Part shown: piece by piece, positions 6,643 to 57,704 of the stretch
Position numbering within the stretch: position 1 is the stretch's first letter
Layout: each line of letters begins with the position of its first letter
NCBI GenBank assembly: GCA_030589945.1
Contig: JAUUZN010000002.1
Location: 1 to 60,166, forward strand
DNA from: Gammaproteobacteria bacterium
Lineage (GTDB): Bacteria; Pseudomonadota; Gammaproteobacteria; Enterobacterales; GCA-2746155
Direction of reading: 5' to 3'
Length of the DNA stretch: 60,166 bases
Made by a program: the position numbers and the translations under genes
The notes under the pieces: model-generated
What the model saw: only the letters and a program-made list of their open reading frames with translations
Told to the model about the DNA's origin: nothing
Database searches by the model: none

Positions 6643-8055
6643 ATGGATACCAATCAATATAATTATAAAGTTGTCAAACAGTTTGCATTTATGACCGTAA
6701 TTTGGGGCATAGTGGGCATGCTGGTTGGCGTAATCATAGCTACTCAGTTAATTTGGCCAGATTTCTTGAGAGATATTCCCTGGCTAAGTTATGGTCGATT
6801 GAGACCTTTACATACCAATGCAGTAATTTTTGCATTTGGCGGCAGTGGATTGTTTGCAACTGCTTACTATGTTGTGCAACGAACCTGCCATGTACAATTA
6901 TTCATGCCTCGTCTAGCGGCCTTTACCTTCTGGGGATGGCAATTGGTAATTGTTCTTGCAGCAATTACACTGCCTCTTGGTTTGACCACTTCTAAAGAAT
7001 ATGCAGAACTTGAATGGCCAATTGATATCTTAATTACGGTCGTTTGGGTCTCCTTTGCAATTGTTTATTTTGGCACCATTGTAAAACGTAAGACATCGCA
7101 TATTTATGTAGCCAATTGGTTTTATGGTGCATTCATCTTAACCATTGCAGTTTTACATTTGGTCAATAGCGCTGCAGTTCCCGTAACATTCTTTAAATCT
7201 TACTCAGCATACGCTGGCGCCATTGATGCGATGGTGCAGTGGTGGTACGGACATAATGCAGTTGGATTCTTCCTAACGGCTGGTTTCCTTGGCATGATGT
7301 ATTATTTTGTCCCTGTACAGTCTGGACAACCCGTTTACTCATACCGTCTTTCAGTAGTTCACTTTTGGGCATTGATTGCAATTTATATGTGGGCAGGTCC
7401 TCATCACCTTCATTACACTTCACTACCGGATTGGGCCCAATCCATTGGTATGGTGTTTTCTTTGATTTTGTTAGCTCCATCTTGGGGTGGCATGATCAAT
7501 GGTATGATGACCATGTCGGGTGCTTGGCATAAGCTTCGCCACGATCCCATATTACAATTTATGATTGTATCCTTATCGTTTTACGGTATGTCTACTTTTG
7601 AAGGTCCTATGATGGCCATCAAAACCGTCAATGCATTATCTCATTATACAGACTGGACCATTGGTCACGTTCATTCAGGCGCATTAGGCTGGGTGGCGAT
7701 GGTGACCATCGGTACACTTTATTCTCTATTTCCTCGACTCTATGGAAAGACAGAAATGTTCAGCGTGCCATTAATCCGAGTGCATTTTTGGTTAGCAACT
7801 GTCGGTGTGGTTCTTTATATCACCGCCATGTGGATTGCCGGAGTGATGCAAGGGCTGATGTGGCGTGCGGTGAATGATGATGGAACTTTAACCTATAGTT
7901 TCGTTGAGTCATTGGAAGCGACAATGCCTTATTATGGTGTTCGTTTGCTCGGAGGAACTATCTTCCTAATTGGTATGTTTTTTATGCTCTACAACGTTAT
8001 TAAGACGATTCAGGGTCCCGATACCGCTGATCGTACAATACCTGCACCTGGTTAA
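6643..8055 (+). CDS. ccoN: cbb3-type cytochrome c oxidase subunit I
   Basis: [37 protein letters not shown] motifs. Confidence 0.97.
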
Positions 8056-8069
8056 TTAAGGAGATACTC

Positions 8070-8675
8070 ATGAGTCATGAAACAATTGAAAAAAATGTAG
8101 GCTTAATGGCAATCCTTATTGTTGTTGCCATTAGTTGGGGGGGATTAGCTGAAATCGTCCCGCTATTCTTTATCTCCGAAACAACTGAACCCGTTGAAGG
8201 ATTAAAACCTTATCCAGCTCTAGAACTAGAAGGTCGTGATATCTACATCCGTGAAGGTTGTCATGTGTGTCACACACAGATGATTCGCCCCTTACGTGCT
8301 GAGACTGAGCGATATGGACACTATACGGTCGCAGGTGAGGATGTTTATGAGCATCCATTCCTTTGGGGCTCTAAACGAACTGGGCCTGACTTATCAAGAA
8401 TTGGCAATCGCTACAGTGATGATTGGCACAGAGTTCATTTGAATGACCCTCGTGATGTTGTGCCTGAGTCTAACATGCCAGCCTATACCTGGTTGAACGG
8501 TGCTGTTCTTGATGGTGTTGATACTCCGAAAAAATTGGAAGCTTTAAAATTTTTAGGAGTTCCATACACTGATGAAGACATTGCAAATGCCACAGACGCT
8601 GTTAAAGGAAAAACTGAGATGGATGCAATTGTCGCCTATCTTCAGGGTCTTGGTAAAGAAATGAAGAATCGATAA
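8070..8675 (+). CDS. ccoO: cbb3-type cytochrome c oxidase subunit II (monoheme c)
   Basis: [29 protein letters not shown]. Confidence 0.97.
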
Positions 8676-8679
8676 GCCA

Positions 8680-8862
8680 ATGGATATTAATGTATTCAGA
8701 GGCATAACAACCTTAATTTTGTTAATCATCTTTATTGGCTTCATCTTTTGGGCATTTAGTAAAAACAGGAAAAAATCTTTTTCTGAAGCTGAATTAATGC
8801 CCTTTGATGACGAGCAAATAAAACAAATTAAAAAGCAACGTGAGGACAGCAATCATGAGTGA
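8680..8862 (+). CDS. ccoQ: cbb3-type oxidase subunit IV
   Basis: Short single-TM protein between ccoO and ccoP. Confidence 0.85.
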   Translation: MDINVFRGITTLILLIIFIGFIFWAFSKNRKKSFSEAELMPFDDEQIKQIKKQREDSNHE

Positions 8863-9736
8863 TTTCTGGAGTTGGTACATCATAATTTTAGTTGTAATTA
8901 ATATTGTCGCTATCTGGGGATTGTTACATTTTACCCGTGAGCTAGACGTTACTCCTGAAGAAGACGGCACAACAGGGCATGCGTACGATGGTATTAAAGA
9001 ATATAATAATCCACTGCCCAGATGGTGGTTGTATATGTTTTATATCACCATAATTTATTCAGTGGTTTACCTCATTGTTTATCCTGGCATGGGAAATTAT
9101 GCAGGGACCTTTGGTTGGAGTTCTGCCGGCCAACATCAGGAACAGGTCGATGATGCGAACGCTAAATTTGGTCCTATTTTTGAGAAGTACGCGAAAATTG
9201 AAGTTGAAGAGTTAGTCAAAGAGAAAAAGGCCGTTGTAATGGGTCAAAGAATCTTCGCCAACACCTGCTTCGCCTGTCATGGTTCTGACGCTCGTGGTGC
9301 ACCGGGATATCCAAACTTAACAGATTCTGGATGGCTTTATGGTTCAACACCCGATGATATTAAAATGAGTATCACCAACGGTCGAACTGGCGTAATGCCT
9401 CCTATGGGTGCAGCACTCGGTGAAGATGGACTTAAAGATGTCGTTGCCTACGTGCTCACATTGTCTGGTAGAGAGTCGCCAACGGGTGATGCTGAAGCTG
9501 GCAAAGCAAAGTTTGTAATTTGCTCAGCCTGTCACGGTGCTGAAGGTAAGGGAAATCCTTTAATGGGTGCGCCTGATCTAACCGATTCGGTATGGCTTTA
9601 CGGTGGTTCTCCCATGTTAATTGCTAAAACAGTCACTGAAGGAAGAATGGGTGTAATGCCTGCTCATAGAGATATTTTAACGGCAGAGCAGATCCATTTG
9701 GTCACTGCCTATATCTATTCCTTGACCAATCAATAA
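8855..9736 (+). CDS. ccoP: cbb3-type cytochrome c oxidase subunit III (diheme c)
   Basis: Two CxxCH (CFACH, CSACH); ATG at 8855 inside ORF 8840..9736 gives MSDFWSWYI. Confidence 0.95.
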   Translation: MSDFWSWYIIILVVINIVAIWGLLHFTRELDVTPEEDGTTGHAYDGIKEYNNPLPRWWLYMFYITIIYSVVYLIVYPGMGNYAGTFGWSSAGQHQEQVDDANAKFGPIFEKYAKIEVEELVKEKKAVVMGQRIFANTCFACHGSDARGAPGYPNLTDSGWLYGSTPDDIKMSITNGRTGVMPPMGAALGEDGLKDVVAYVLTLSGRESPTGDAEAGKAKFVICSACHGAEGKGNPLMGAPDLTDSVWLYGGSPMLIAKTVTEGRMGVMPAHRDILTAEQIHLVTAYIYSLTNQ

Positions 9737-9778
9737 GTGTTAAGATTATATTAATAGTTACTAATGTAAGCAGCTAAC

Positions 9779-11191
9779 ATGACTGACCCTAAAAAGGCTT
9801 CGTCGGATGCATTAAAAATAGAGCATCCGACTAGTCTCTACGCAAAATCTCCCACGGTTTACGTTAAGAAAAGTGAAGGTTACTTTGCTAACCTTCGCCT
9901 TATCTCAGCCTGGATACTGCTCGGTCTATATTATGGTTTTCCTTGGATAAATTGGAATGGTACTCAAGCGGTACTGCTCGATCTACCAGCGCGTAAATTT
10001 CACTATTTTGGCATCACTCTGTGGCCACAGGATTTTATTTATCTATCTTGGCTGCTCATTATTGCCGCCATGACCCTGTTCTTTTTTACCTCATTAGCGG
10101 GTCGTCTCTGGTGTGGCTATGCTTGTCCTCAGACTGTATGGACAAAGACATTTTTATTTATAGAGCGCATCATTGAAGGTAATCGAAACAAGCGAATGAA
10201 GCTTGATAAATCGCCATTATCTGCACGTAAAATTCGTATTAAAGCCTTTAAGCATTTCAGTTGGCTAACGTTTGCATTATTTACAGGATTTACCTTTGTA
10301 GGTTACTTCTCTCCCATTAGAGAAATGGTGACACAAATTCCTGATCTATCTTTTGGGGGTTGGGAGTCATTTTGGATCATATTTTATTCACTAGCGACAT
10401 ACGGTAACGCTGGCTGGCTTAAAGAGCAGGTGTGTATCTATATGTGCCCCTATGCACGATTCCAAAGTGCTATGTTTGATGTGAATACTCTCATTATTGC
10501 CTATGATCCCAATCGAGGAGAGTCTCGAGGATCGCGAAAAATCAAAGACAAGGACTATAAAGAGCAGGGCCTTGGTGATTGTATTGATTGTGAACAATGT
10601 GTCCATGTATGTCCGACAGGCATTGATATAAGAGACGGTTTACAATACGAATGTATTGCCTGTGCAGCCTGTATTGATACCTGTGATTCAGTCATGGAAA
10701 AGATGGATTATCCTAAGGGATTAATTCGTTATACCACAGACAATGAAAACGATGGTAAAGAAACCAGTGTATTCAGACTGAAGACAGCTGTTTATGCTGT
10801 TGTTCTCATTGGTTTATTTGTGTCTTTTGTTATTTCGTTGAATAACAGAATACCCTTTGAAGTTGATATTATCCGTGACCGAAGTACGCTTTATACCAAT
10901 ACGCTTGAGGGTTTGGTTGAGAATGTTTACAGCATTAAAATGCTTAACATGTCGCAAAAGGACATGAACTATCATATTGAAATTTCGGGTCTTGATTCAA
11001 TTATCCTATTGGGTGATTCAGATGTATTTGTGAAGGCTGGAGAAGTCGTAACGGTGCCAGTTCGTTTACAGGTTGACCCTGGACAACTTAAATCGAGCAG
11101 TACCACAATCTACTTTAAAGCCCATTCTATTGAAGACCCTACAATCGTTGCAGATTCTGAAAGTCGATTCCTAGGTCCGGTGAGCAGATAA
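9779..11191 (+). CDS. ccoG: Cytochrome c oxidase accessory protein CcoG (FixG/RdxA-like)
   Basis: CGYACPQTVWT, CIDCEQCVHVCPTGIDIRDGLQYECIACAACIDTCD. Confidence 0.96.
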   Translation: MTDPKKASSDALKIEHPTSLYAKSPTVYVKKSEGYFANLRLISAWILLGLYYGFPWINWNGTQAVLLDLPARKFHYFGITLWPQDFIYLSWLLIIAAMTLFFFTSLAGRLWCGYACPQTVWTKTFLFIERIIEGNRNKRMKLDKSPLSARKIRIKAFKHFSWLTFALFTGFTFVGYFSPIREMVTQIPDLSFGGWESFWIIFYSLATYGNAGWLKEQVCIYMCPYARFQSAMFDVNTLIIAYDPNRGESRGSRKIKDKDYKEQGLGDCIDCEQCVHVCPTGIDIRDGLQYECIACAACIDTCDSVMEKMDYPKGLIRYTTDNENDGKETSVFRLKTAVYAVVLIGLFVSFVISLNNRIPFEVDIIRDRSTLYTNTLEGLVENVYSIKMLNMSQKDMNYHIEISGLDSIILLGDSDVFVKAGEVVTVPVRLQVDPGQLKSSSTTIYFKAHSIEDPTIVADSESRFLGPVSR

Positions 11192-11194
11192 AAT

Positions 11195-11713
11195 ATGGTT
11201 AAATCAACATTGATTAATGGAGTCCCTGAGCATCTTGTACCCTGGTACAAACAGTTTTGGCCTTGGTTTATTATTTCATTACCAGCAACTGTAGTTGTTG
11301 CGGGACTAGTCACCGTATATATCGCTTTTGATAATGCCGATAGTCTGGTTGCAGATGATTATTACAAACAAGGGTTAGCAATAAATGGCAATATTAAAAT
11401 GCAAACCAATGCATCGACCTATGGTTATGCAGCATTATTGAAAAGAATGCCTGACAATCGATTATTTCTTAAGTTTGACAATGCAACGCCAGATACCGAA
11501 ACTCTGAGTTTGAAATGGGTGCATCCGGGTGATAGTGAGAAAGATTTTGTGATGATTTTGAACCGTCAATTGGATGGGAGTTTTCAAAATAAAAGTGAAA
11601 ATGATTTTTCAGGTCGCTGGTACTTGCAACTATCAGCAGATAGCGATTGGCTGATTAAATCTGAAATTAGTTCTGGGATCACGACCGTACATCTTACGCC
11701 GCGCATAAATTAG
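11195..11713 (+). CDS. ccoH: FixH family protein
   Basis: Position between ccoG and ccoI; WPWFIISLPATVV TM segment and DDYYKQGLAIN. Confidence 0.88.
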   Translation: MVKSTLINGVPEHLVPWYKQFWPWFIISLPATVVVAGLVTVYIAFDNADSLVADDYYKQGLAINGNIKMQTNASTYGYAALLKRMPDNRLFLKFDNATPDTETLSLKWVHPGDSEKDFVMILNRQLDGSFQNKSENDFSGRWYLQLSADSDWLIKSEISSGITTVHLTPRIN

Positions 11714-11722
11714 TAGGCCAAT

Positions 11723-14191
11723 ATGGCCGATTCTTCAAATCATTGTTTTCACTGCGGACTTCCTAACACTGCTACTGCTGATGCAAAATCAAAATATCCT
11801 GTAGTGGTGAATGATGAAACTGAGTATGTCTGCTGTCCGGGCTGTCAGGCAGTCTGTGAGTCGATAATCAGCCTCGGGTTATCTGATTATTACCAATTCC
11901 GTGAAAACCTACCTGATGTGTCTCCCAAAGAGCTCGAAGCAGATCTCGAACAACTTGAATTTTATGATCATCAAAAGGTTCTGAGCAAATACACGTCATT
12001 AGACGATGAGCAAAATCAAAGCATCGCACTAATGATTCAAGGGATAGTCTGTTCAGCCTGTACTTGGTTAATTGAATCTCGTATTAGCAAGATGCCTGGG
12101 ATCAAAATAATCTCAGTAAATCAAACGACAAGTCGTGCATTGGTGAGTTGGGATCCAGAAATTGTAAAACTGAGTGAGATTCTTAAATCAATCAATCTAC
12201 TGGGTTATCAGGCACAACCCTATGATCAAAAAATTAAAGAGCAACAACTCATTGATGAAAATAAACGGGCTCTTAAAAAGCTAGCCGTTGCCGGTCTAGG
12301 TATGATGCAAGTGATGATGTATAGCCTAGGGTTTTATTTGGACACGGGTTCAGAGATGAGTCACTCAACGGCAACCATATTGCGTTGGACGAGTTTACTG
12401 ATATCAGCTCCTGTAGTTTTTTATTCCGCGAGTTCATTTTATATCTCAGCATTTAAAGCGTTAAAAAATAAAGCAGTGAACATGGATGTGCCAGTGACCA
12501 TTGCGATTTTTTCAGCCTGGGGAGCAAGCCTCTATACAACATTGATGGGACAGGGCGAGGTCTATTTTGATTCAGTGAGTATGTTTGTTTTCTTCCTACT
12601 CACGGGTCGATATTTGCAGATGAAAGCCATTCATCGTGCAAGCCGTGTATTGGAATTTAAACTCAAGTCTAAACCAGAAACAGCGTTACGTATTTCTGAG
12701 AATGTTGAAAAAAGAGTCATTCAAGAAAGAGTGTTACTTGATGATGTGTTGGTCGATGATCATCTGTTGATTAAACCGGGTCAGCAAATTCCCTGTGACG
12801 GTATCGTCATTAAGGGTGAGACCTCGGTTGATGAGTCTTTATTAACCGGTGAGTCCATGCCCTTGCATCGTAAGATTGGGGATAATGTGGCTGCGGGTTC
12901 AATTAATAAAGGTGATGCTATCACAATTGCGGTCACTAAAATTGCTGAGGATTCTACTCTTAACGGTATTATCAAATTAATGCAAAGAGCGCAGCAGGAT
13001 AAACCCGATATTCAATTGTTCGCGGATAAAATTGCCAGTTATTTTGTGACCATGGTGCTTGTGGTCGCCCTAAGTACTGGGTTGTTTTGGTTGCAACAGG
13101 ATAGTCATCAGGCGTTTAATGCGGTTTTGGCTGTGCTGGTCGTCACCTGTCCTTGTGCCTTATCTCTTGCGACACCCGTAGCGATTACCACCGCACTGGG
13201 TCGACTGACGAGCATGTCATTAATACTGAACCGTACTAAGGTCATGAGTTCATTGAGTGAGTTGACCGATGTTGTTTTTGATAAGACCGGTACACTGACA
13301 ACCGGTGGGTTTAGTGTCAGTGAATTAGACAACCGCTCTGAGATTTTTGATTCGGAAGTACTCTATATTATTTCTCTCATAGAAAGTGAATCCGAACATC
13401 CCATTGCAACAGCATTTCAAAACAATGATACGAGTACAATTGTTCAGGAGTACGCAAAAAAGTATCAACTTGATGAAACATCATTGATTTCTTCGAAAGG
13501 TATTGAGGCTATAATCTCTGGGGAAAGGTGGATGATTGGGAATTCAAGTATTCTTAGCAATGAAACAATTTATTCAGCAGATGAAAAACTCCCTGCTGGT
13601 CAGTTAGCGCTCTATTTGCTGCAAGATGAACAATGTATAGCGAAGGTGATTGTCAAAACTGAAATTAGAAAAGATGCTGCAACAACAATCGAGCAACTTA
13701 AATCGATGGGCATAAAAGTTCATCTGCTAAGTGGTGATCAACAAAGCAATGTGCAACAGACTGCTGATGAGTTAGCTATTGATACGTTTTATGGCGAGCA
13801 AACACCCGAACAAAAACTAGCGTACATTAATGCACTAACATCAAAGGGGTTGAATGTAGCCATGGTGGGAGATGGTGTCAATGACAGTCCTGCAATGGCA
13901 GCATCACTGGTGTCCTTTGCCATTGCTAAATCAACTGACATCACCAAGACCAGCGCAGATATTGTTATGCTCTCTGATCAGTTGAGTTCTATCTTAGATG
14001 CCATTAGACTTTCAAAATCTACTCGCAGGATTATTAAACAAAACCTACTTTGGGCCCTGTCTTATAATGTCTTGGCAATCCCACTTGCAGTCTCGGGTTT
14101 TATTACACCTTGGATTGCTGCTGCGGGTATGTCGTTGAGTTCTTTGGTGGTGGTTTTTAATGCATTAAGATTAAATCGGAGGATCACTTGA
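11723..14191 (+). CDS. ccoI: Cu-translocating P-type ATPase CcoI/FixI
   Basis: CSACTW metal site, TGES, CPC, DKTGTLT, GDGVNDSPA. Confidence 0.96.
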   Translation: MADSSNHCFHCGLPNTATADAKSKYPVVVNDETEYVCCPGCQAVCESIISLGLSDYYQFRENLPDVSPKELEADLEQLEFYDHQKVLSKYTSLDDEQNQSIALMIQGIVCSACTWLIESRISKMPGIKIISVNQTTSRALVSWDPEIVKLSEILKSINLLGYQAQPYDQKIKEQQLIDENKRALKKLAVAGLGMMQVMMYSLGFYLDTGSEMSHSTATILRWTSLLISAPVVFYSASSFYISAFKALKNKAVNMDVPVTIAIFSAWGASLYTTLMGQGEVYFDSVSMFVFFLLTGRYLQMKAIHRASRVLEFKLKSKPETALRISENVEKRVIQERVLLDDVLVDDHLLIKPGQQIPCDGIVIKGETSVDESLLTGESMPLHRKIGDNVAAGSINKGDAITIAVTKIAEDSTLNGIIKLMQRAQQDKPDIQLFADKIASYFVTMVLVVALSTGLFWLQQDSHQAFNAVLAVLVVTCPCALSLATPVAITTALGRLTSMSLILNRTKVMSSLSELTDVVFDKTGTLTTGGFSVSELDNRSEIFDSEVLYIISLIESESEHPIATAFQNNDTSTIVQEYAKKYQLDETSLISSKGIEAIISGERWMIGNSSILSNETIYSADEKLPAGQLALYLLQDEQCIAKVIVKTEIRKDAATTIEQLKSMGIKVHLLSGDQQSNVQQTADELAIDTFYGEQTPEQKLAYINALTSKGLNVAMVGDGVNDSPAMAASLVSFAIAKSTDITKTSADIVMLSDQLSSILDAIRLSKSTRRIIKQNLLWALSYNVLAIPLAVSGFITPWIAAAGMSLSSLVVVFNALRLNRRIT

Positions 14192-28503: not shown

Positions 28504-29862
28504 TCAGGCTGTTTCTTTTCTTAAAAATGCTTTTATCATAACGATAATAAATAAAGTGCCACCAATAATAGAAATGGCTCCACCTGCGCCCATTAATCCC
28601 ATGCTAGCAATTTGTGGTAAGTGCTCCAACACATCTTCAGCACCAAATGTTTTACGCTGCACACCATAACCTCCAGACCAGACTAAGCCGATAATATGCA
28701 TTAGCTGTCCACCACCATAGATATAAGGTTGCCAACAGGCCATCTTTGACATCGGTCTAGAAAATCCTAGATATGGAAGAAGATGGTAAGCGAGTCCCAT
28801 GAATGCCAAGGTTACACCAACAATTGAACCATGATAATGGGCGGGCACTACCACATTCATTCCATCGATCATAAATCCGATAATTCCACCTGCCGCAAAT
28901 AATGTTATTGAGCTGAGTAGCGCTGCTTTAACGGGTAATTTATTAGCATGAAAAGTAGGAGACTTAATAATAGAAAACACCACAACAAATCCCAGAGGGA
29001 TGGAAGCTAATCCACCATACTTCATCAAATCAGTGAAGGCTGTTCTGTGCTCTAGTGAAACAACATCATATTGGAGATAAATGAAAGGAGTCACTACAAG
29101 AGGGAAGGCCGCTAACAAAAATAGCCATTGGGCAATTTTCGGCGAGAAGTCAATGCTGATTCCTGCAGCCTTGCCTATCCATAACCAGGCAACTAACAAT
29201 AACAATGTATGAGTATATTGCAGTATGTGACCGGAACCCCAAAATAAAACCTCGTAGAAAGCAGTACTTTCATAGGACGACGGTATCCCTACATAACTTG
29301 CAACCAACGAAATCAATGCCAATAGAGCAATCCATGCGCTGATATAGATGCCCGTATCTAACGCGTCAGAAGGACTAGGATTAGAAAAGTTAGGGGGGCT
29401 TGATGTTATTCTCAGTAAAATTTGTAATAGCATTCCCAAGCCAAAAATAGACAAGCCTGTGATGAATATTGGATGATCTAATATTGGGATATAATTATTC
29501 ATCAGCGGATTACCCACACCGATAAATGGAGCAATACTGATTGCTAGGGTTCCAGTTATCGCTAATCCAATGGCAATTTTATTGAGAACATTATTTTTAG
29601 AATCCGTGGTAAAACTCCACAAAACACCTGCAAAAGAAACAAACCATATCAATACTGAGAGATCCACATGAACAACCAAAGCCACATAAAAGAAGTTGCT
29701 AAAAGGAATCATTTCCTTTATCACGGGTGTACGTGATAGAACCAATACTATAGAAAATATTCCTGCCAAAACTAGTGAAACAACACTTAATTTTAACCAG
29801 GCTGATGCTATAGAATTTTCGGCATTGATTGATTTTGAAAATTGAAAATATTGACTTGTCAT
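28504..29862 (-). CDS. Heme-copper oxidase superfamily subunit I-like protein, CuB His-His pair apparently absent
   Basis: Multi-TM; helix II H (VALVVHVDLSVLIW), helix VI FWGSGHILQYTHT, helix X PAHYHGSIVGVTLAFMGL; the expected HH region reads FIYLQYDVVSLEHRTAF. Confidence 0.8.
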   Translation of the reverse strand: MTSQYFQFSKSINAENSIASAWLKLSVVSLVLAGIFSIVLVLSRTPVIKEMIPFSNFFYVALVVHVDLSVLIWFVSFAGVLWSFTTDSKNNVLNKIAIGLAITGTLAISIAPFIGVGNPLMNNYIPILDHPIFITGLSIFGLGMLLQILLRITSSPPNFSNPSPSDALDTGIYISAWIALLALISLVASYVGIPSSYESTAFYEVLFWGSGHILQYTHTLLLLVAWLWIGKAAGISIDFSPKIAQWLFLLAAFPLVVTPFIYLQYDVVSLEHRTAFTDLMKYGGLASIPLGFVVVFSIIKSPTFHANKLPVKAALLSSITLFAAGGIIGFMIDGMNVVVPAHYHGSIVGVTLAFMGLAYHLLPYLGFSRPMSKMACWQPYIYGGGQLMHIIGLVWSGGYGVQRKTFGAEDVLEHLPQIASMGLMGAGGAISIIGGTLFIIVMIKAFLRKETA

Positions 29863-29864
29863 TT

Positions 29865-30908
29865 TTATTGTTTAACTTCTCGGTTAATAAATATCATGAT
29901 AGAGAGCAATATCATTGCTCCGCCCTGATGCGCAACAGCAACAGGGACTGGCATGTTGAAAATTAATGTAGTGACACCCAGAGTTACTTGGATCACTAGC
30001 ATCGCTAAAAGGAAATGTGCTGCCTGACTGCTTTTTCTGGTAATCGCGAGACGTCTTAGTGCAAAACTAAAAACGGGGACTATCACCAGCAAAAGATAGG
30101 CTGTCATTCGATGGTTGAATTGGATCGTAGTTATGTTCTCAAACCAGTTTAACCAAAAGGGTACAAGGGTATACATGCCGTCAGGAATAAACTTTCCTTC
30201 CATCAGTGGAAACGTATTGTAGGCATAGCCGGCTTTAGTTCCAGCAACGAAGCCACCCGTGCTAATCATAAAAACAACCAAGCCTGTTAACGCCAAAGAG
30301 TAGCGATATAATGTTCGCCCTTGAGCAGTGTTAACAAGTTCACGGCCTTGTTGTAACAAACCAAAAGCAACCCATAAGATATAGCTAAATATCATCACAG
30401 CGGCAATTAAATGGGCCGTTAATCGATATTGACTAACCTGTGGGTCATTGACTAAACCGCTTTTAACCATGTACCAGCCGAGTACACCTTGTAGGCCGCC
30501 AAGGATAAACATGGTTATCATCTGCGGTAACATTTTGCGACGAATTCTACCGGCAAACCAGAAGAATAAGAATGGTATTAGAAATATCAATCCAATCAAT
30601 CGGCCCAATACGCGGTGAGAATATTCAAAATAAAAAATGCTTTTAAATTCATCCAAAGACATACCAATGTTTAACTTTTGATACTCTGGAAATTCTTGGT
30701 AATGTTTGAATGCTTGCATCCACTGGATTTCATTAAGCGGTGGTATTACACCCATAATGGGCTTCCAATCGACCATTGATAAACCGGAATGAGTGAGGCG
30801 GGTAGCTCCTCCTAAAATGATCATAAAAAAAATAACGGCAGCAACAATAAATAACCAAGTAGCCACCTGTTTGTCATGAGCGTTTTGTAATGATGTATCT
30901 ATACTCAT
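29865..30908 (-). CDS. ctaA: COX15/CtaA family heme A synthase, Cys-less (mitochondrial/alphaproteobacterial-like) type
   Basis: GGATRLTHSGLSMVDWKPIMGVIPPL...FYFEYSHRVLGRLIG. Confidence 0.9.
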   Translation of the reverse strand: MSIDTSLQNAHDKQVATWLFIVAAVIFFMIILGGATRLTHSGLSMVDWKPIMGVIPPLNEIQWMQAFKHYQEFPEYQKLNIGMSLDEFKSIFYFEYSHRVLGRLIGLIFLIPFLFFWFAGRIRRKMLPQMITMFILGGLQGVLGWYMVKSGLVNDPQVSQYRLTAHLIAAVMIFSYILWVAFGLLQQGRELVNTAQGRTLYRYSLALTGLVVFMISTGGFVAGTKAGYAYNTFPLMEGKFIPDGMYTLVPFWLNWFENITTIQFNHRMTAYLLLVIVPVFSFALRRLAITRKSSQAAHFLLAMLVIQVTLGVTTLIFNMPVPVAVAHQGGAMILLSIMIFINREVKQ

Positions 30909-31918
30909 GAAAATGATTTTCCCGACATTTTTCTATTAAGAGATGTTAAAAACATTAATAACACGGCAGTCATGAAGTTATGAGAGAGCACCAAAAACAA
31001 CGGCAGTTGAACTAACAATGTGCTGATCCCTAATAAGAACTGAGCGACGACTAAAGAAAGCACCAACAAGCAGTCCTTGGCTAACCGACGATCGGAACTC
31101 CATTCGGATCGCATGAGAAATGTCACTATCGATATGAAATAGGCGAGAACAATTACACCTAAAAAATGATGTATGATTTGAATGAGCTTCATCTTGTCTT
31201 CAAGTATAACTTTGTCTTGGTTGTCCAATTGCAAAAAACCGACTGGATTGAAAGCCTCAATAATGTTTACACTCTCTATTTGCTTGGCACCACAATTAAA
31301 TAAACTTTCACAGCTAGAACCTGCAAAGTTAACACTGGTCCATCCCCCCCAGAATATTTGCAACAAAATAATAAACATACCAATACGAACGAAGGGAACA
31401 AGAGGTGATTCCATATGGATTTCTTTCGTTCCTGATATTTTTAGATAAAGATGTAAAAGCAACGCGACCAATACTAAACCCCCAACAAAATTACCCATTA
31501 AGAGAATGGGTAATGGCTGATTAGGATGAAACGGGCCTATGGCTGCTAAAAATACGGTCACTGATAAAATTGCCGTAGGAATGCGGTTACCGAGTATGTT
31601 TCGATACTTTTCACTCATCGTTAATAAAAAGAGGAATAAAATGATTAAGCCTAATGTACTGGTCACTATTCGATGAGCAATTCTTTCCATTCGATAAGGA
31701 GTGGCACGGGCTTCACTGGTTAGTACATTAACACCTTGAACACTTTTGTTATTTTGATATTGACCATAGCAGGAGGGCCATGGCTCACAACCAACGCCAG
31801 ATTCAGCTAGACGCACATAGCTACTGAGAACCACCGTCATTAAGGCGAATCCCAAAGCGATTATTATTAATGCAGGTAACCATCGGCTGACCTTAGTATT
31901 TGGTGTTTCGATATTCAA
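30905..31918 (-). CDS. ctaA: COX15/CtaA family heme A synthase, Cys-pair type
   Basis: SSYVRLAESGVGCEPWPSCYG, RIAHRIVTSTLG, GSSCESLFNCG, IHHFLGVIV. Confidence 0.9.
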   Translation of the reverse strand: MNIETPNTKVSRWLPALIIIALGFALMTVVLSSYVRLAESGVGCEPWPSCYGQYQNNKSVQGVNVLTSEARATPYRMERIAHRIVTSTLGLIILFLFLLTMSEKYRNILGNRIPTAILSVTVFLAAIGPFHPNQPLPILLMGNFVGGLVLVALLLHLYLKISGTKEIHMESPLVPFVRIGMFIILLQIFWGGWTSVNFAGSSCESLFNCGAKQIESVNIIEAFNPVGFLQLDNQDKVILEDKMKLIQIIHHFLGVIVLAYFISIVTFLMRSEWSSDRRLAKDCLLVLSLVVAQFLLGISTLLVQLPLFLVLSHNFMTAVLLMFLTSLNRKMSGKSFS

Positions 31919-31938: not shown

Positions 31939-32472
31939 TTATTTAAGAAGTAGCATTACTTCATGCCGAATTTTAGATATATCATTTGCTTTGAAACCTT
32001 GGTGTGCATACCGTAACACACCCTGCTTATCAATAAGGTATGAAGCAGGTAATACGTTAATCTGGTACAGTTTGTAAATATCGAGTTCAGCAGTATGCAC
32101 CACTGGATAATCTACTGGATATTTTACAAGAAAATCTCTGCCATTATTTGGATCATTGTCTAAATTAATAGCAAGAATTTCAAATTCATCGTTGCCAAGT
32201 TCTTTGCGCATTTTATCCAACAATGGCATGGATGTTAAACAGGGTTTGCACCAAGAAGCCCAAAAATCCAGATAGATAACTTTGCCGCGGTAATTTGTCA
32301 GTCTATCGTCAATGTTACCATCAGACATAAGTGATTGAAAAATAATTTCCGGTGCCATTTCACCAATTTTTAAAACCGGTGGCATTTTGCCAACAGGAGT
32401 TTCAACATCGCTGCAACCACTGATAAAAACAAGCCATAATATTAAAAAACAATTCAATAAATACTGTCGCAT
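31939..32472 (-). CDS. TlpA/ResA-type thioredoxin-like lipoprotein
   Basis: Lipobox FISGCSD; DFWASWCKPCLTSMPLLDKM. Confidence 0.92.
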   Translation of the reverse strand: MRQYLLNCFLILWLVFISGCSDVETPVGKMPPVLKIGEMAPEIIFQSLMSDGNIDDRLTNYRGKVIYLDFWASWCKPCLTSMPLLDKMRKELGNDEFEILAINLDNDPNNGRDFLVKYPVDYPVVHTAELDIYKLYQINVLPASYLIDKQGVLRYAHQGFKANDISKIRHEVMLLLK

Positions 32473-32601: not shown

Positions 32602-32814
32602 TTGGAAATTATCTTATTTACCCTAGTAGCAATTGTTTTATATATTGTCTCAGACAGCATTGTAAAAGCCATTGAACAACGAAACAGTGCGTTACAGAAA
32701 TATCGTAGCATTATTTTTTTCGTCATCATAATGGTATTGGCGGTAACAACTTTTAGTCTTTTACAAAACTACGGGCCCGAACTTGGTTTGTTGCCAACTC
32801 CTCCTGCAGAATAG
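32602..32814 (+). CDS. Small 2-TM membrane protein on the strand opposite the flanking oxidase genes
   Basis: 70 aa, two hydrophobic helices; TTG start; between two minus-strand operons. Confidence 0.5.
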   Translation: MEIILFTLVAIVLYIVSDSIVKAIEQRNSALQKYRSIIFFVIIMVLAVTTFSLLQNYGPELGLLPTPPAE

Positions 32815-32825
32815 ATTTTAAAATA

Positions 32826-34901
32826 CTAAAGCTTGTTACTTGTTCCCCCTAAAATGATGAATTTTTTGGTATCCGGATCAAAGTCAATCACCAGTACACT
32901 TCTGGAAGCCAGATTAATTTCTCTGGTTTCCTGATAATTATAATCATCTAAATCTCTGTGATCCTTTAATTTTACAGTAATTTTATGCATCCCTGCTTTA
33001 ACGGTAAAGCGATGATATAATTTGGCCCTGCCATCATTATTCAAACCCGCCGGCATGACCACCTTGTGGTAAGACTCCACATCATTTATAAGTAATTGAA
33101 ACTCAATTGAGGAGCGTTCTCTAGGACATACTTTGGCGAGCCTCATATTAGCCGGTAAACTAAGCATTTCTTCATCAGAGCGAAAGCGACACTCACCAAT
33201 GATTTGACCCGTATGACGCAAACTTAGTTTAATGGTTGCTTCACCTTCTTCAATCTGTGTATAGGTTGGTGAATTAGAAAAGTAGCCAATAAATAATATT
33301 ATTGCCGCATAAAACAATGCCTGCCCAAAATAATTCTTACCTTTCTTTTGGAATCTGATATTACCTATATCTTCTGACACTTTTCCAGAATCTAAAAGCT
33401 GAGAAAAATTATTGACCTCCGATTTCAATGCTGGCAATTCCATTGCTCCAGCCCAACGGACTCTAACCTTATTATAATCTTTTGCAGCTGCCGTCCTTAA
33501 ATGCGGACTGCGTTCTCCTTTAAATCGTTCATCAATCCATTGATTTCCTAATCGGTAATAACAGTTTTCTAAGCAACAGCCGGTGACCATTACACCATCG
33601 GCATGATCTTTTCTTATCAAGTAGTCGACAAAAGAGGGGGGCAAAAAACCTATACAGGGCAGGCTAATTGGGATGGTGTTTTTGATGCCAATTTGCTCTA
33701 TGTCAGCACCTTTTTCGCAACCAAAGATAATGAGCCTGTCTTTACCCTTCAGTTGTCCAAGCTTGTTGATAATTTCGTGTTTAAATACATCAATAGAATA
33801 ATCCGGTATGCCGATACCACTCTTCAATTCATCAATGGTTTGAAAGGGTGTAGCAGATGGACAAGAACCCGTGCAAATTCCACAGGCTGTACATTTGTCA
33901 GGATTTACCACAGCGATACGTGGACTTTTATTATTAGGATGGGGTTCAAAACTAATTGCGTCGAATGGACAGTCGAGATCACACCAGCCACAACCATTAC
34001 AGCGATCTGGATTGATAACGGCTGCAGGCACTTTTTTGTGCTTCATTATTAACGGCAGGAAGCTTAAAAACATTGATATCCCTACCAGTAATACCCAAAC
34101 TGTCCCAGGTCCCCAATAATCAATCAAGGGATAAACATTAAGATAAAACCAATCAATTGGAATATTAACCGGTGTCTGACTTAAATCGGCGCGACCAGAA
34201 CTGATTGCAGGCTTTATTAGTGATAGCACAATGAACGCTATAATGGTTCCAATGGCCAAGCCTCTCGGAGGATTAGTTTTCGCTTTTGAGACACGGCTAA
34301 TATGGATAAACATAGCCAGCATCATAAATAGCGGAATACCAAAATGAAGAAATACCATCAATGAGAAGAAACGATCACTCACCGTATCGTTGCTTAAAAA
34401 GTTTCGAGCCATTGGATCGCCAAAAGTAGGCAACCAATCAAGAAATTCCATTGTGGCAACTGCAACATATTGTGCAAATTGATCCCATACTAGCCAATAG
34501 CCACCAATTGCTGCAGCAAACATAAACCATAGCAGTGGGATGCCTGTGAACCATGAAAACCAACGGGTACCGGTGAAGCGTCCCAGTGAGAATTCGCGCA
34601 CTAGATGCAGCGTTACTGTTAATGCTAATGCATCTGAGCAATAGCGGTGTAAGCTTCTTACAACTCCACCTAAATACCATTGTTCATTGGTTAAATACTG
34701 AAGCGAGTCATAGGCACCATTAATGCTGGTTTCAAAAAATATAAACAGATAAAGGCCGGTAACGGTTAAAATCCAAAAGAAATAAAATGATAAGGCGCCC
34801 AGTTGATAGAAGGGATTCCAATCGTCATCAAAAAATAAATTGAATGCTGCTTCCACACGATCAAATAAATAATGTAGAGACTTTTGTAAAACAGATAGCA
34901 T
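32826..34901 (-). CDS. Fusion: cytochrome b (b6-like, bis-heme) + 2x[4Fe-4S] ferredoxin + MvhD/FrhD-type iron-sulfur domain + C-terminal beta domain
   Basis: Two H-x13-H pairs (LHRYCSDALALTVTLH; LHFGIPLFMMLAMFIH); CNGCGWCDLDCP, CTACGICTGSCP; FGCEKGAD...CIGFLPP...GCCLENCYYRLGN. Confidence 0.88.
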   Translation of the reverse strand: MLSVLQKSLHYLFDRVEAAFNLFFDDDWNPFYQLGALSFYFFWILTVTGLYLFIFFETSINGAYDSLQYLTNEQWYLGGVVRSLHRYCSDALALTVTLHLVREFSLGRFTGTRWFSWFTGIPLLWFMFAAAIGGYWLVWDQFAQYVAVATMEFLDWLPTFGDPMARNFLSNDTVSDRFFSLMVFLHFGIPLFMMLAMFIHISRVSKAKTNPPRGLAIGTIIAFIVLSLIKPAISSGRADLSQTPVNIPIDWFYLNVYPLIDYWGPGTVWVLLVGISMFLSFLPLIMKHKKVPAAVINPDRCNGCGWCDLDCPFDAISFEPHPNNKSPRIAVVNPDKCTACGICTGSCPSATPFQTIDELKSGIGIPDYSIDVFKHEIINKLGQLKGKDRLIIFGCEKGADIEQIGIKNTIPISLPCIGFLPPSFVDYLIRKDHADGVMVTGCCLENCYYRLGNQWIDERFKGERSPHLRTAAAKDYNKVRVRWAGAMELPALKSEVNNFSQLLDSGKVSEDIGNIRFQKKGKNYFGQALFYAAIILFIGYFSNSPTYTQIEEGEATIKLSLRHTGQIIGECRFRSDEEMLSLPANMRLAKVCPRERSSIEFQLLINDVESYHKVVMPAGLNNDGRAKLYHRFTVKAGMHKITVKLKDHRDLDDYNYQETREINLASRSVLVIDFDPDTKKFIILGGTSNKL

Positions 34902-34994: not shown

Positions 34995-35915
34995 TTAATC
35001 TGTTTTATCGGTTACAGCTGAATCATTATTCTCGTCGTTGTGATTACCTGTTTTACTTAATTTCCACTCACGAACAAAAATTCTAACGAAGAATATACCC
35101 ATAACCAAGGCAACAAATATTCCAATAAAAATGGAATAGTTAAAATAATACTTATCTTGGGAAGGATCGTAAACAGTGCAGAATAGTTTTATCTTTGTCG
35201 AAATGGCAGAGAATAAAGAAGCACTCTTATTTTCACCAAAGACTAGCTCTTTTAGTGGTTCGACAAAATTGGGTGTTTGAGGTCTCATCCCATAAACTTG
35301 ACGGTAAACAACAGAATCTTTATCGAGTATGCTGGCTTGTATCATGTGATCAAAACCTTGGGGTGAGGCTGAAAAAATAAATCCCAAATCTCGTGCTAAG
35401 GCACTCATTGTTGCCGCATCTGTTGAAAGGAAAAACCAGTTTTTTGAACCTGAACTGTGCGACTTTGCAAACTGAGCCATTGCCTTGGGAGTGTCTATGT
35501 GAGTATCAAAACCAATAGTAATGACATTAAAACTATCCTCACCTAACACCTGCGTAGCTTTTTCAACCACCCGATTTAAATTTTCTGTAATGGTTGGACA
35601 AATATGATGACAACTAGTGTATATCATACTCACTATCAATGGTTTTCCACTGAAGGTTTTAGTGGTTAATATTGCACCATCCGATGAAGTAAAACGATAA
35701 TGACCTACCGATTGACCGATAGCAGCCTGACTGATTGCCAGTGCTTGCTCATTGCTATATTGGCTAATCTCTTCAGTTGCGGTATTTTTGTTTTTAATAT
35801 GGTCCTTGGCGGCTACATCTGATGTAGCAGCATTTGCTGTAGCACCGAAAGCCAAAAGGAATAAACAACTAACGGTGAATCGACGATTAAATCCCCGTTG
35901 AAAAAAATTAAACAT
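34995..35915 (-). CDS. SCO1/SenC family copper chaperone with C-terminal TM
   Basis: KPLIVSMIYTSCHHICPTITENLNRV; GFDTHIDTP; GFDHMIQASILD. Confidence 0.92.
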   Translation of the reverse strand: MFNFFQRGFNRRFTVSCLFLLAFGATANAATSDVAAKDHIKNKNTATEEISQYSNEQALAISQAAIGQSVGHYRFTSSDGAILTTKTFSGKPLIVSMIYTSCHHICPTITENLNRVVEKATQVLGEDSFNVITIGFDTHIDTPKAMAQFAKSHSSGSKNWFFLSTDAATMSALARDLGFIFSASPQGFDHMIQASILDKDSVVYRQVYGMRPQTPNFVEPLKELVFGENKSASLFSAISTKIKLFCTVYDPSQDKYYFNYSIFIGIFVALVMGIFFVRIFVREWKLSKTGNHNDENNDSAVTDKTD

Positions 35916-35940: not shown

Positions 35941-35984
35941 CATTAGGCATTCCATTAGGCTCTCCATTAGGCTCTCCATTAGGT
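35941..35984. repeat. 12-bp tandem repeat at the ctaB 3' end / ctaB-SCO intergenic gap
   Basis: cattaggcattc cattaggctctc cattaggctctc cattaggt. Confidence 0.9.
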
Positions 35985-36842
35985 AAAGCCATTAAGTACT
36001 GAGCCGAGTAAAACCATTGTCAACTGTATTAATGATGCAAAAAAACAACTCATAGCACTCTTCTTATTGGTATTAATAACCAATTGTATACTTTTAATTA
36101 TAAAATAGGCGCCACCTGATAGGGCGCAGATTAGATAAACAACTCCCATTTCATAGAAAAAAGGCAAAATGGATACCGTCACCAGCATTAATGTGTGAAT
36201 GAGAATGACGATTGCCGCTTTTTCATCGCCTATCACTACTGGCAACATGGGCACCTTAGCAAGTGCATAATCTTTGTGAAGAGCAATGGCCAGACTCCAA
36301 AAATGTGGAGGTGTCCAAAGAAATAAAACCATGGCCAGTAATATTGAGGAACTATTTAAATCTGGTGATGCGGCAGCAGCTCCGGCCAATACTGCAAAAC
36401 TGCCAGATACACCGCCAATGATTATGTTGATACTGCTTCGACGTTTTAACCAGAGGGTATAAACGACTCCATAAAAGAAAGCGCCTAAGAATAAATAAAT
36501 CGCTACCATCGAATTAAAAACTATCCAGGCGGTAACCACTGAAGCGACAAGAATAGCTGCAATAATAAATAACCAAATAGAATGGTGTTTAATAACACCC
36601 GTTACAAAGGGTCTATTTTGCGTACGTGGCATTACCGAATCGAGATCTCTCTCAGCATATTGATTAAAAGCACCAGCGCTTGCTGAAGCCAAAACCACCA
36701 GCACCAACAACAGTGTGACTTCTGCTAGTGAAAGTTCTCTACCTGGTGTCACCGCATAGCCTGCAAGTGCAGTGACCGACATCATTATTCCGATCCTAAG
36801 TTTAAACAGATCGACCAATTGTCTGAGCATTAGAAACCTCAA
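35979..36842 (-). CDS. ctaB: Protoheme IX farnesyltransferase (heme O synthase)
   Basis: LVDLFKLRIGIMMSVTALAGY, NQYAERDLDSVMPRTQNRP, WTPPHFWSLAI. Confidence 0.95.
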   Translation of the reverse strand: MRFLMLRQLVDLFKLRIGIMMSVTALAGYAVTPGRELSLAEVTLLLVLVVLASASAGAFNQYAERDLDSVMPRTQNRPFVTGVIKHHSIWLFIIAAILVASVVTAWIVFNSMVAIYLFLGAFFYGVVYTLWLKRRSSINIIIGGVSGSFAVLAGAAAASPDLNSSSILLAMVLFLWTPPHFWSLAIALHKDYALAKVPMLPVVIGDEKAAIVILIHTLMLVTVSILPFFYEMGVVYLICALSGGAYFIIKSIQLVINTNKKSAMSCFFASLIQLTMVLLGSVLNGFT

Positions 36843-36930: not shown

Positions 36931-38637
36931 CTAACTGAGGCCCCATGTTTCTGACAGATACTTCCAGTTGATGAAGTAATAGGCGGCGAAAGTTGCTAAA
37001 AATACCATCGCTAAGAGGAATGTTCCCGGAATAGCGTTGTTGGTTGATTTATGTAGCGTAGCATACTGTTCATCAGTCACTGCCGGTACAATCATTTGCT
37101 GAGAGCACTTTTCATCATCAGCCAGTTTCTTACCAAAGAGTAATGAACCGACGATGAGTAAACAAAACATCGCTCCACCGATGACTGCCAACACTACACT
37201 TAAACCATTGAGTGACATCATCGCTAATGCTGATGATGCGAATTCATAAGGGAAGGTGGCATCTGTGAATGAAGTATCCCAATGTCTGCGTGGTACACCC
37301 ATGGTTCCAGCGCCCATCATGAACATTGAAACACCAACCATTCCCAGACTGAAGATATAAGGTTGCATGGAACAGAGTTTCTTAAAGATTAGTTCTCGGC
37401 GGAATATTATCGGTACCAGCCAGTAGGTAAGTCCCATAAATGTCAAGGTTGTACCCAATACAACGGTAGCGTGAAAGTGACCGGGAACATAGAGGGTGTT
37501 GTGGATTAGCAAGTTCAATTGCTCAGTACCCATCATGACTCCGGTAATACCACCGATGAATCCAAAACCAAATATGGATATCATGATTGAAGAGAAGGTT
37601 GGGTTGCCCCAAGGCGCTTTTCGTAACCACTCAAATAATCCATTATTAAAACCACGTGCTCTTTGTGCTGCTTCCATGGCACCTGGAACTGTCACACCAT
37701 GAACCATACTTGCCATAACCGCAAGATACATAGCGTAACTGGTATTGAACATCTTCCATTCAGCGCTAACGCCCGGATCAACCAATAAATGGTGAGCACT
37801 GGCGATTTGAAGAACAGCAATATAGAGTAAAAATGCAAAACGACTGACTTTTTCAGAGAGTGGTTTGGCACCAAACATAACGCTGGCAACCAAATACCAA
37901 ATGGTAATGTGCGTGGCGACGTTAATTTGTTGAGAAGAGTGTCCGAAAGCCCACCAGATTAAACGATAAACACCAGCATCAATATGGCTCACTAAGCCCA
38001 ATTGCCAGAAAAATGTGGGTAATAGGATTAACGCGCCAGATGCGATAGTAAAGACTGCGATAATACAGGCGGTTAATGCACCAAAGGTTACCAGTGGTAA
38101 CGATCCCTCATAGGTTTTCTCTTTCTTTGCGATAACTAATGTACCGAGAAAGACGAAGCAACCTAACAGGGCGCCTACGGCAAAGAGTATCAATCCCAAA
38201 TAAAAGGACCAATGAGCAGGCATCGGTGCATAGGAGGTCATCATTACAGCTGAATTAAGTTTCCACACTGCGTAGTTGTTCATTAAAGCACCAACGACCA
38301 TGAGGCCAAATCCAGCCCATGCTACTTTTGGGGCAGCCAACCGAACGCGAAGTACGGCGGAGGATGCAAAGTAGAGTACTGCAATTTCGAAAAAGATGAT
38401 CCAAAATATTAATACATTGATGCCATGACCCGTTAGAGCGGTATAAAAGTCTTGTGCTCCTAATAAATGCACTTCGGGCCAGCGTGTTAAACCAACACCT
38501 AGCCCCATAAATCCACCTACTAATAAGAAAACAACAGCAGCTACGGCGTTAGCTTTTATCAGCGACAATGCTGGTTTGTGTAGTAAAAGCCCAGTATCAG
38601 GGCATGTTCGGAAATTATTGTCTGACATTAGAGTCAC
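36931..38637 (-). CDS. Heme-copper oxidase superfamily subunit I, NO-reductase-like (Gln at the cross-linked Tyr position; B-family-derived NOR candidate)
   Basis: TGHGINVLIFW, WAFGHSSQQINVATH, SAHHLLVDPG, VPGHFHATVVLGTTLTFMGL. Confidence 0.85.
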   Translation of the reverse strand: MTLMSDNNFRTCPDTGLLLHKPALSLIKANAVAAVVFLLVGGFMGLGVGLTRWPEVHLLGAQDFYTALTGHGINVLIFWIIFFEIAVLYFASSAVLRVRLAAPKVAWAGFGLMVVGALMNNYAVWKLNSAVMMTSYAPMPAHWSFYLGLILFAVGALLGCFVFLGTLVIAKKEKTYEGSLPLVTFGALTACIIAVFTIASGALILLPTFFWQLGLVSHIDAGVYRLIWWAFGHSSQQINVATHITIWYLVASVMFGAKPLSEKVSRFAFLLYIAVLQIASAHHLLVDPGVSAEWKMFNTSYAMYLAVMASMVHGVTVPGAMEAAQRARGFNNGLFEWLRKAPWGNPTFSSIMISIFGFGFIGGITGVMMGTEQLNLLIHNTLYVPGHFHATVVLGTTLTFMGLTYWLVPIIFRRELIFKKLCSMQPYIFSLGMVGVSMFMMGAGTMGVPRRHWDTSFTDATFPYEFASSALAMMSLNGLSVVLAVIGGAMFCLLIVGSLLFGKKLADDEKCSQQMIVPAVTDEQYATLHKSTNNAIPGTFLLAMVFLATFAAYYFINWKYLSETWGLS

Positions 38638-38646
38638 CCTTTATAA

Positions 38647-39189
38647 TTATTTAACGACGTGGATCTTACCCACCATATTGTGATGACCTATACCGCAGAA
38701 TTCATTACAAATAATTGAAAATTCTCCGGATTTGTTAGGCGTAATGGTAAAGACATGTTCATATCCAGGTAACACTTGAATATTGATGTTTTCAGGTTGT
38801 AGAGAAAACCCATGATTCCAGTCCATAGAAGTCAAATGTAATCGATAACTTTGACCTTCTTTAAGTTCAAGAATTGGCCACCAGTCCCAGAGTCTCGCTA
38901 CAAGATAAACGTCGGAACCAATAGGTGGAGCAACCACTGGAAATTTACGGTCACCTTCTTCACGTATGGTAAATTCATCAACCATGGCTTGGGCTTTCTT
39001 TTGAAACAATTGAGGAGTGGTTCGATAGGTTTCAGCCGAGAGGTTTTGGTTTCCATACACGTGCCACAAAGGCATCATTAGTGTAAGAATTAAACCCCAG
39101 ACTATCACTATTCCAATCCAGATAAGTTCAACCCTTTCGATGGGCTCTTTCCACCATAGTTTTTGAGCCGGTGGTGATAGACATGTCAT
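38647..39189 (-). CDS. Cytochrome c oxidase/NO reductase subunit II with intact CuA site
   Basis: HGFSLQ...GEFSIICNEFCGIGHHNMVGKI; N-terminal TM. Confidence 0.9.
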   Translation of the reverse strand: MTCLSPPAQKLWWKEPIERVELIWIGIVIVWGLILTLMMPLWHVYGNQNLSAETYRTTPQLFQKKAQAMVDEFTIREEGDRKFPVVAPPIGSDVYLVARLWDWWPILELKEGQSYRLHLTSMDWNHGFSLQPENINIQVLPGYEHVFTITPNKSGEFSIICNEFCGIGHHNMVGKIHVVK

Positions 39190-39241: not shown

Positions 39242-39388
39242 TTATTGAGCCAAAGGGATCGATACTAACTCCATAATTCCCCAGATCAGATAAGTCACTG
39301 TGGGTATTAATACACCTATAAATAATAATAAAAAGCTGTTATCCATAAGCTTTTGCATTAATGGAATATTTTCTTCATCATCTGCCAT
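39242..39388 (-). CDS. 48-aa single-TM microprotein, candidate small subunit (not in the ORF track)
   Basis: Hand-translated MADDEENIPLMQKLMDNSFLLLFIGVLIPTVTYLIWGIMELVSIPLAQ*; GGGAG about 8 nt before ATG; directly upstream of subunit II. Confidence 0.75.
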   Translation of the reverse strand: MADDEENIPLMQKLMDNSFLLLFIGVLIPTVTYLIWGIMELVSIPLAQ

Positions 39389-39545
39389 GTTCACTGCTCC
39401 CATTGAGGGGTTAAAAATTAATTTTAAAAATGAAAATCCAAGACAAATTTATCAAGGAGGAACATCTCCAAACCTTACGTAAGATAGAATACTATGCATG
39501 GTCAATTGTAAGAAAGTGTAATTCGATGAAGAACTTACAAAACTA

Positions 39546-39656: not shown

Positions 39657-40172
39657 TTAATCCTTTTTTTTCTCAGCCGCATTAAATAATATTTCACTGA
39701 TTGCATCACCCGAACCGTCGTAAAGTGCTCCCCAATGGAGATCTTTACCGCCACAGATATTAATAGTCTTAGTTCGCCAATTTTCTAGCAAAGTGTTTCG
39801 AGTAGGATCTGTACCTGCCCATTCCAATGCTGCAGTTTTATGTATTGCATTCACATAAACTATTTCTCTTCTGAGCATTCCAAAGGAAACGTACTGTCGA
39901 TAGTAATCATCCAGATTTACTGCTTTTCCTGGTGCAAATTTTTCTAGCGCTGCAGGAAGCAATGTCTCAATTTTTTCAACTAATTTAATATCTAACTCGT
40001 TATAACTGGTTCTAAAGGATGGTGTCATCCTTGAACATTGCTTAAACATTTTTAAAATTTGGGGAACCTCATTAAGAATACTGTAATTTGTTTCTTTCGT
40101 TTCCGCCGAGATCTGAAGGGAGAAAGAAAAAACAACACACCATAGATTTATTAAAAAAAGACTACGTTTCAA
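39657..40172 (-). CDS. Hypothetical secreted protein
   Basis: Signal peptide MKRSLFLINLWCVVFSFSLQISA; paired Cys. Confidence 0.5.
   Translation of the reverse strand: MKRSLFLINLWCVVFSFSLQISAETKETNYSILNEVPQILKMFKQCSRMTPSFRTSYNELDIKLVEKIETLLPAALEKFAPGKAVNLDDYYRQYVSFGMLRREIVYVNAIHKTAALEWAGTDPTRNTLLENWRTKTINICGGKDLHWGALYDGSGDAISEILFNAAEKKKD

Positions 40173-55544: not shown

Positions 55545-57704
<2,160 letters not shown>

Follow-up and report, generated by a model that had tools for sequence, protein, structure and literature searches.

A 691-aa protein encoded in a 60,166-nucleotide stretch of gammaproteobacterial DNA (the window) is probably a dedicated, so far uncharacterised helper that moves electrons across the membrane, either to build the NOR-like enzyme eNOR or to feed it. 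We gave this fusion protein the working name CBFM and called its C-terminal module Cdom. Its domains, its invariant ligands, its near-exclusive co-occurrence with eNOR and its conserved neighbours can be read directly from the DNA; a more specific reading sees in CBFM an accessory protein, dedicated to eNOR, that conducts electrons through the membrane and most likely acts in the maturation of the enzyme; we favour this reading tentatively.

The sequence-only reading had described a fusion of a bis-heme b6-like membrane domain, two 4Fe-4S clusters, an MvhD/FrhD-like domain and a C-terminal beta domain. The open reading frame was present at exactly 32826-34901, with the correction that it lies on the minus strand (34901..32826), and every proposed domain was recognised by profiles: the membrane domain as Pfam Cytochrome_B (residues 29-204, 75 bits against a curated cut-off of 27), the two clusters as Fer4/Fer4_7 (295-349, above the curated cut-off), and the MvhD/FrhD-like domain as FlpD (MvhD) (408-501, 36.7 bits, cut-off 22.3). 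The b6-like half was found as described; the cytochrome b part turned out to reach further than that, into a PxDW (PEWY-like) segment. The gene and its parts are as follows.

32826..34901, minus strand: CBFM (cytochrome b - 2x[4Fe-4S] - MvhD - C-terminal domain fusion), 691 aa
34290..34817, minus strand: cytochrome b (b6-like) domain, residues 29-204, with heme ligands H85, H99, H186 and H200
34047..34265, minus strand: what is left of the C-terminal half of cytochrome b (residues 213-285); invariant D250-W251 takes the place of PEWY
33855..34019, minus strand: two-cluster ferredoxin domain, residues 295-349, with eight invariant Cys
33387..33740, minus strand: MvhD/FlpD domain, residues 388-505, with four invariant Cys and an expected [2Fe-2S] cluster
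32829..33356, minus strand: Cdom, residues 516-691, one helix plus beta-sandwich, with two conserved Cys and one conserved His

Conservation and the family profile were based on 53 relatives; a scan of the collection with CBFM as a single sequence returned one close relative only. Among these 53, the heme ligands H85/H99/H186/H200 were invariant or near-invariant, the ferredoxin cysteines (C301/304/307/311 and C337/340/343/347) and those of the MvhD domain (C395/416/442/447) were invariant or nearly so, and the quinone-site-like PxDW motif was invariant. The four MvhD-domain cysteines fit a [2Fe-2S] site. The family profile matched cytochrome b6 (E 4e-29), bc1 cytochrome b and the solved MvhD chains 9sw2_D and 5odc_D, and family positions 26-302 aligned in one stretch with residues 25-323 of bovine cytochrome b in the profile match. 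Judging by the offset at the end of the alignment, D250-W251 would correspond to the Glu-Trp of the PEWY quinone-site motif. A cytochrome b fold was also predicted by AlphaFold (53 rows, pLDDT 83.9; one row from an annotated plasmid record was left out of the structure-prediction alignments), and a Foldseek search with this model gave bovine bc1 cytochrome b as the best match (9e-9), with a TM score to target of 0.72 for b6. CBFM shares with cytochrome b6 and bc1 cytochrome b a homologous bis-heme domain and the PEWY-like segment, but differs from them in its shortened C-terminal half, in having Asp for Glu, in its Fe-S fusion and in having no Rieske or cytochrome c1/f. The best NCBIfam match of the cytochrome b part (112.6 bits) was the ExtP b-type cytochrome of a selenite/tellurite reduction operon (NF040969), but the curated cut-off is 290, far above this score, and the model holds no Fe-S fusion. 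Residues 293-504 resembled the C terminus of HdrA2, with the same order of ferredoxin and MvhD, again far below the NCBIfam cut-off. With the HdrA2, MvhD and QmoB modules CBFM shares this arrangement and a homologous MvhD domain; unlike them, it has no HdrA flavin domain, hydrogenase or HdrBC and carries a cytochrome b membrane anchor of its own.

Predicted alone, Cdom came out, in line with the earlier description of a beta domain, as one helix followed by a 7-strand beta-sandwich (mean pLDDT 94.8). It had no Pfam match, a fold search against the PDB gave no confident relative and only weak Ig/CARDB-like matches, and no sequence similarity was seen to the CcoG and CcoH encoded in the window itself. 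Homology to CcoG/FixG_C or FixH was tested with hhalign and Pfam and not found. Positive residues precede the Cdom helix, suggesting a periplasmic location for the sandwich and a cytoplasmic one for the Fe-S domains. The family conserves cysteines 571 and 592 (protein numbering); the divergent L150 copy lacks both, a joint loss suggesting that the two form a pair. Cdom is fused to CBFM in the window and in the L003 and f183 genomes, while elsewhere, as in most relatives, it is the next gene; in family f225 (L134, L149 and L150) two CBFM copies stand in tandem with one Cdom gene. A combined alignment of core and Cdom was discarded, with the Cdom rows scattered over the core.

The genes around CBFM, described earlier as NOR-like subunits and SCO, proved to be eNOR-type subunits I and II, CtaB and SCO, accompanied by further genes.

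28504..29862, minus strand: HCO-like protein, 452 aa, with the His of TM2, TM6 and TM10 kept and the TM7 His-His pair missing
29865..30908, minus strand: CtaA heme A synthase
30905..31918, minus strand: divergent CtaA/COX15-like protein with four conserved Cys
31939..32472, minus strand: thioredoxin-like (ResA/TlpA-type) protein
32602..32814, plus strand: small hydrophobic protein, 70 aa, convergent with CBFM and unannotated
34995..35915, minus strand: SCO copper chaperone family protein
35979..36842, minus strand: CtaB heme O synthase
36931..38637, minus strand: eNOR subunit I, motif FGHSSQQINV, with Gln replacing the oxidase Tyr
38647..39189, minus strand: eNOR subunit II, with a complete set of CuA ligands
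39242..39403, minus strand: single-helix 53-aa protein ahead of subunit II

By its sequence, the NOR-like enzyme beside CBFM is specifically eNOR. The criterion given in PMC8756737 is a Gln at the position of the crosslinked Tyr of subunit I, and this Gln (TM6, FGHSSQQINV) was present in the window and kept across a 37-member aligned set. Subunit II, whose gene lies immediately upstream of that of subunit I, has a full CuA site, with H126, C161, C165, H169 and M172 conserved. Matches from Haloarcula were rejected as eNOR, as they carry the ordinary Tyr motif. The genome encodes four COX1-family proteins. One, on C144, is an ordinary oxidase and another belongs to the window's cbb3 operon; the remaining two are eNOR and the HCO-like protein, and no further NOR-type COX1 protein was found beyond eNOR. 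Genes of the cytochrome cd1 family were found in all 14 eNOR genomes tested, the window's included, which is an indirect pointer to NO reductase activity. The cd1 protein of the window (NirS/NirN-type; 55575-57704, plus strand) has a pair of cytochrome c domains at its N terminus, ahead of the d1 domain, a make-up that resembles the chimeric NirS proteins reported for Chloroflexi in PMC8756737.

Several of the neighbours recur with the system. In a 22-member aligned set from eNOR-linked loci, the HCO-like protein retains the heme-type His of TM2 and TM10 together with a single His in TM6 but has no TM7 His-His pair, and it is probably not a catalytic oxidase. The divergent CtaA-like protein, which keeps only the His pair of the C-terminal half, recurs in several eNOR clusters, and homologues of the small hydrophobic protein (about 60-110 aa, no Pfam match) occur in about 30 CBFM/eNOR loci. 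The 53-aa single-helix protein also precedes the subunits II of Thermus and Thermomicrobium; it may be a small subunit of the enzyme, as subunit IIa is of ba3 oxidase. A conserved 171-aa protein with no Pfam match (39657-40172, minus strand) is encoded upstream of eNOR in the window and in the L003 and f183 genomes. The window also carries a cbb3 oxidase operon with CcoG and CcoH (6643-14191, plus strand), so that the organism has both systems.

We then determined how closely CBFM is tied to eNOR, a tie to NOR having been claimed from the window alone. A CBFM relative was found in 34 of 369 gammaproteobacterial genomes and eNOR subunit I in 33; both were present in 32, CBFM only in 2, eNOR only in 1 (G320) and neither in 334. 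All three exceptions are explainable by incomplete assembly: G272 is 77% complete, G315 has an eNOR fragment at a contig edge, and in G320 the contig stops 24 bases past eNOR subunit I. The Fisher p value for this co-occurrence was 1e-42; since the genomes are related, the tallies by genus (26 and 27 of 272 genera) are fairer. In a second draw of 399 Pseudomonadota, 34 had a CBFM relative, and all well-assembled CBFM genomes held eNOR subunit I, in a tally of 18/18 that includes the eNOR-only G320. The claimed tie is strongly supported by the two draws, in which the family was found almost only with eNOR and mostly had NOR or oxidase neighbours. In some lineages CBFM lies kilobases from eNOR or on another contig and still co-occurs with it. 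This exclusivity holds for Pseudomonadota, other phyla having been covered through plasmid records alone. Evolutionary distances of CBFM, eNOR subunit I and SCO were similar (Mantel r 0.75 each). A genome of the same genus as the window, G001, lacks CBFM and gave no cytochrome cd1 match, which makes the CBFM/eNOR system accessory at the genus level. The passages of the eNOR literature available here name the enzyme only.

These counts bear on the idea that CBFM acts on its own as a ferredoxin:quinone (or quinol:ferredoxin) oxidoreductase, perhaps a bifurcating one, and is tied to eNOR by co-regulation only. Its PxDW motif fits such an activity, and MvhD and membrane Fe-S modules co-occur in the quinone-linked QmoABC (PMC4911364). 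Such an enzyme would be expected in genomes lacking eNOR, however, and essentially none was found in the draws of 369 and 399 genomes. Among the cluster proteins there was no Rieske or cytochrome c1/f partner, and neither CBFM nor the adjacent cluster proteins had an HdrA-type FAD domain; with flavin, Rieske and cytochrome c1 all missing from the cluster, neither known bifurcation chemistry is complete. Bifurcation, which the sequence-only reading had raised as a possibility, was accordingly rejected, and we consider a free-standing oxidoreductase improbable.

The usual gene order is the 53-aa protein, subunits II and I, CtaB, SCO, CBFM, Cdom and the HCO-like protein, with CtaA genes nearby. 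Cdom was present at every one of 31 fully flanked CBFM loci. It was followed in frequency by eNOR subunit I (25 loci), SCO (24), the small hydrophobic protein (22), CtaB (17), the HCO-like protein (13) and CtaA (9); in the six without adjacent eNOR, the enzyme is encoded elsewhere in the same genomes. Where clusters are split, SCO and CtaB remain with eNOR, while CBFM has CtaA and the HCO-like gene directly after it in f183, and in f233 is accompanied only by the small hydrophobic protein. A minimal unit was found on a Defluviimonas plasmid, with subunits II and I, CtaB, SCO, CBFM, Cdom and a hemerythrin and no cytochrome c; it is a mobile unit of enzyme, assembly factors, CBFM and Cdom. Relatives of subunit I with the same Gln, encoded on plasmids of Thermus and Thermomicrobium, had no CBFM beside them.

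The arrangement in f183, where CBFM and CtaA stand together with the HCO-like gene apart from eNOR, raises the question of heme A synthesis. CBFM could be the electron donor of CtaA for eNOR, in the manner of the mitochondrial ferredoxin and reductase for Cox15, which requires both (PMC13213658). CtaA and CtaA-like genes are present in several clusters, and paralogues of the cytochrome b module are ferredoxin-FAD-NAD(P)H fusions. Against this, CtaA lies within the cluster in only 9 of the 31 flanked loci. Oxidases of the aa3 type are common in genomes lacking CBFM, so CtaA has no general need of it. CtaA activity moreover requires O2 (PMC9145763), and we regard a role as CtaA donor as rather unlikely.

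The paralogues were informative about the direction of electron flow. The cytochrome b module of CBFM is also found fused to Fer2-FAD-NAD(P)H (L151:10637-12619 and L048:7583-9571) and to flavodoxin-FAD-NAD(P)H (L066:2172-4712), and a further paralogue, L044, is interrupted by a contig end. Three of the four (L151, L066 and L044) lie in or beside eNOR clusters, and L048 lies elsewhere in its genome. The fused forms draw electrons from cytoplasmic NAD(P)H, and the MvhD form would probably draw them likewise, from a partner protein. The paralogues thereby suggest a flow from cytoplasmic Fe-S to heme b, opposite to the quinone-to-Fe-S transfer suggested in the sequence-only reading.

The main rival to a maturation role is direct electron feeding of eNOR. 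CBFM would then be a respiratory donor, passing electrons from quinol at PxDW or from cytoplasmic Fe-S proteins to eNOR or the HCO-like subunit as a dedicated substitute for bc1 plus cytochrome c, which is the idea of the sequence-only reading minus bifurcation. The near-exclusive linkage to eNOR, the invariant bis-heme ligands with the quinone-site-like motif, and an HCO-like neighbour that is itself bis-heme all fit a donor of this kind. The complete CuA of subunit II, however, is where cytochrome c usually docks to deliver electrons. A bc1-type cytochrome b was found, at a low threshold, elsewhere in the window's own genome and in most CBFM genomes searched; with CuA and bc1 both at hand in most genomes, an extra quinol-to-CuA link by CBFM is not required. 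The Fe-S clusters are, moreover, predicted to be cytoplasmic, away from CuA, and eNOR-like enzymes occur elsewhere, on plasmids, with no adjacent CBFM. We judge a respiratory donor unlikely, though it deserves to be weighed seriously.

An accessory role, probably in maturation, is favoured because the paralogues are fed by NAD(P)H, because CuA and, in most of these genomes, bc1 are present, and because the plasmid unit joins the enzyme, CBFM and Cdom with assembly factors. In the proposed scheme, low-potential electrons of the cytoplasm would enter CBFM at the MvhD [2Fe-2S] port, cross the two [4Fe-4S] clusters to the two membrane-spanning b hemes and exit to the periplasm close to the C-terminal beta domain, where they would most likely aid eNOR maturation by reducing copper, a chaperone thiol or an intermediate of heme A synthesis. 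The cofactors, the orientation of the protein, the direction in which electrons flow and the role in maturation are all deduced from sequence and gene context, and the copper or thiol chemistry is putative. The location of CBFM outside the vicinity of SCO in two lineages, in one of them with CtaA and the HCO-like gene, weakens a specific partnership with SCO or a purely copper-linked role, and its staying with these two genes in f183 keeps heme A synthesis and direct electron feeding as rivals. The invariant PxDW counts against maturation, since it hints at a functional quinone site and a reductase that served maturation alone could do without one.

The task proposed would be that of CcoG, and possibly CrpH, for other heme-copper enzymes. 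CcoG, a cupric reductase, ends in an Ig-like domain that lies in the periplasm (PMC7558416). CBFM parallels CcoG (FixG, RdxA), which serves cbb3 assembly, in its predicted layout: a TM bundle is followed by cytoplasmic 2x[4Fe-4S], another TM helix and, at the C terminus, a periplasmic beta-sandwich. Like CcoG, it is dedicated to one family of heme-copper enzymes and is encoded beside that enzyme. Unlike CcoG, it has an unrelated membrane part, a two-heme cytochrome b absent from CcoG, and an extra MvhD domain, and the C-terminal domains share no sequence similarity; Pfam and hhalign comparisons gave no CcoG homology (Fer4_18, FixG_C), and CBFM would be at most an analogue, not a homologue, of CcoG. 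NosR/NirI is likewise a membrane polyferredoxin dedicated to one denitrification enzyme; NosR differs from CBFM in having a periplasmic FMN domain and no cytochrome b. CrpH (PepSY_TM) and the eukaryotic metalloreductases are heme membrane proteins thought to move electrons outward for HCOs (PMC13038864). CrpH, a heme-based membrane protein like CBFM, is a precedent for supporting HCO function (PMC13038864), but it belongs to the PepSY_TM family, is not a cytochrome b6 relative, and has no Fe-S domain mentioned for it.

Taken with its paralogues, CBFM may point to a wider dependence, which we propose with slightly more reserve than the maturation role: eNOR of Proteobacteria would depend on an undescribed class of b6-type cytochrome b reductases that move electrons outward and whose cytoplasmic input modules, 2x[4Fe-4S]-MvhD, ferredoxin-FAD-NAD(P)H and flavodoxin-FAD-NAD(P)H, would be exchangeable. 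The enzyme is widespread, little studied and N2O-producing, and databases often label it as cytochrome c oxidase. As a near-constant companion of eNOR in Proteobacteria, CBFM can serve as its marker and opens a direct way to study how eNOR is built or wired, and it shows cytochrome b and MvhD modules in use beyond methanogens, hydrogenases and bc complexes.
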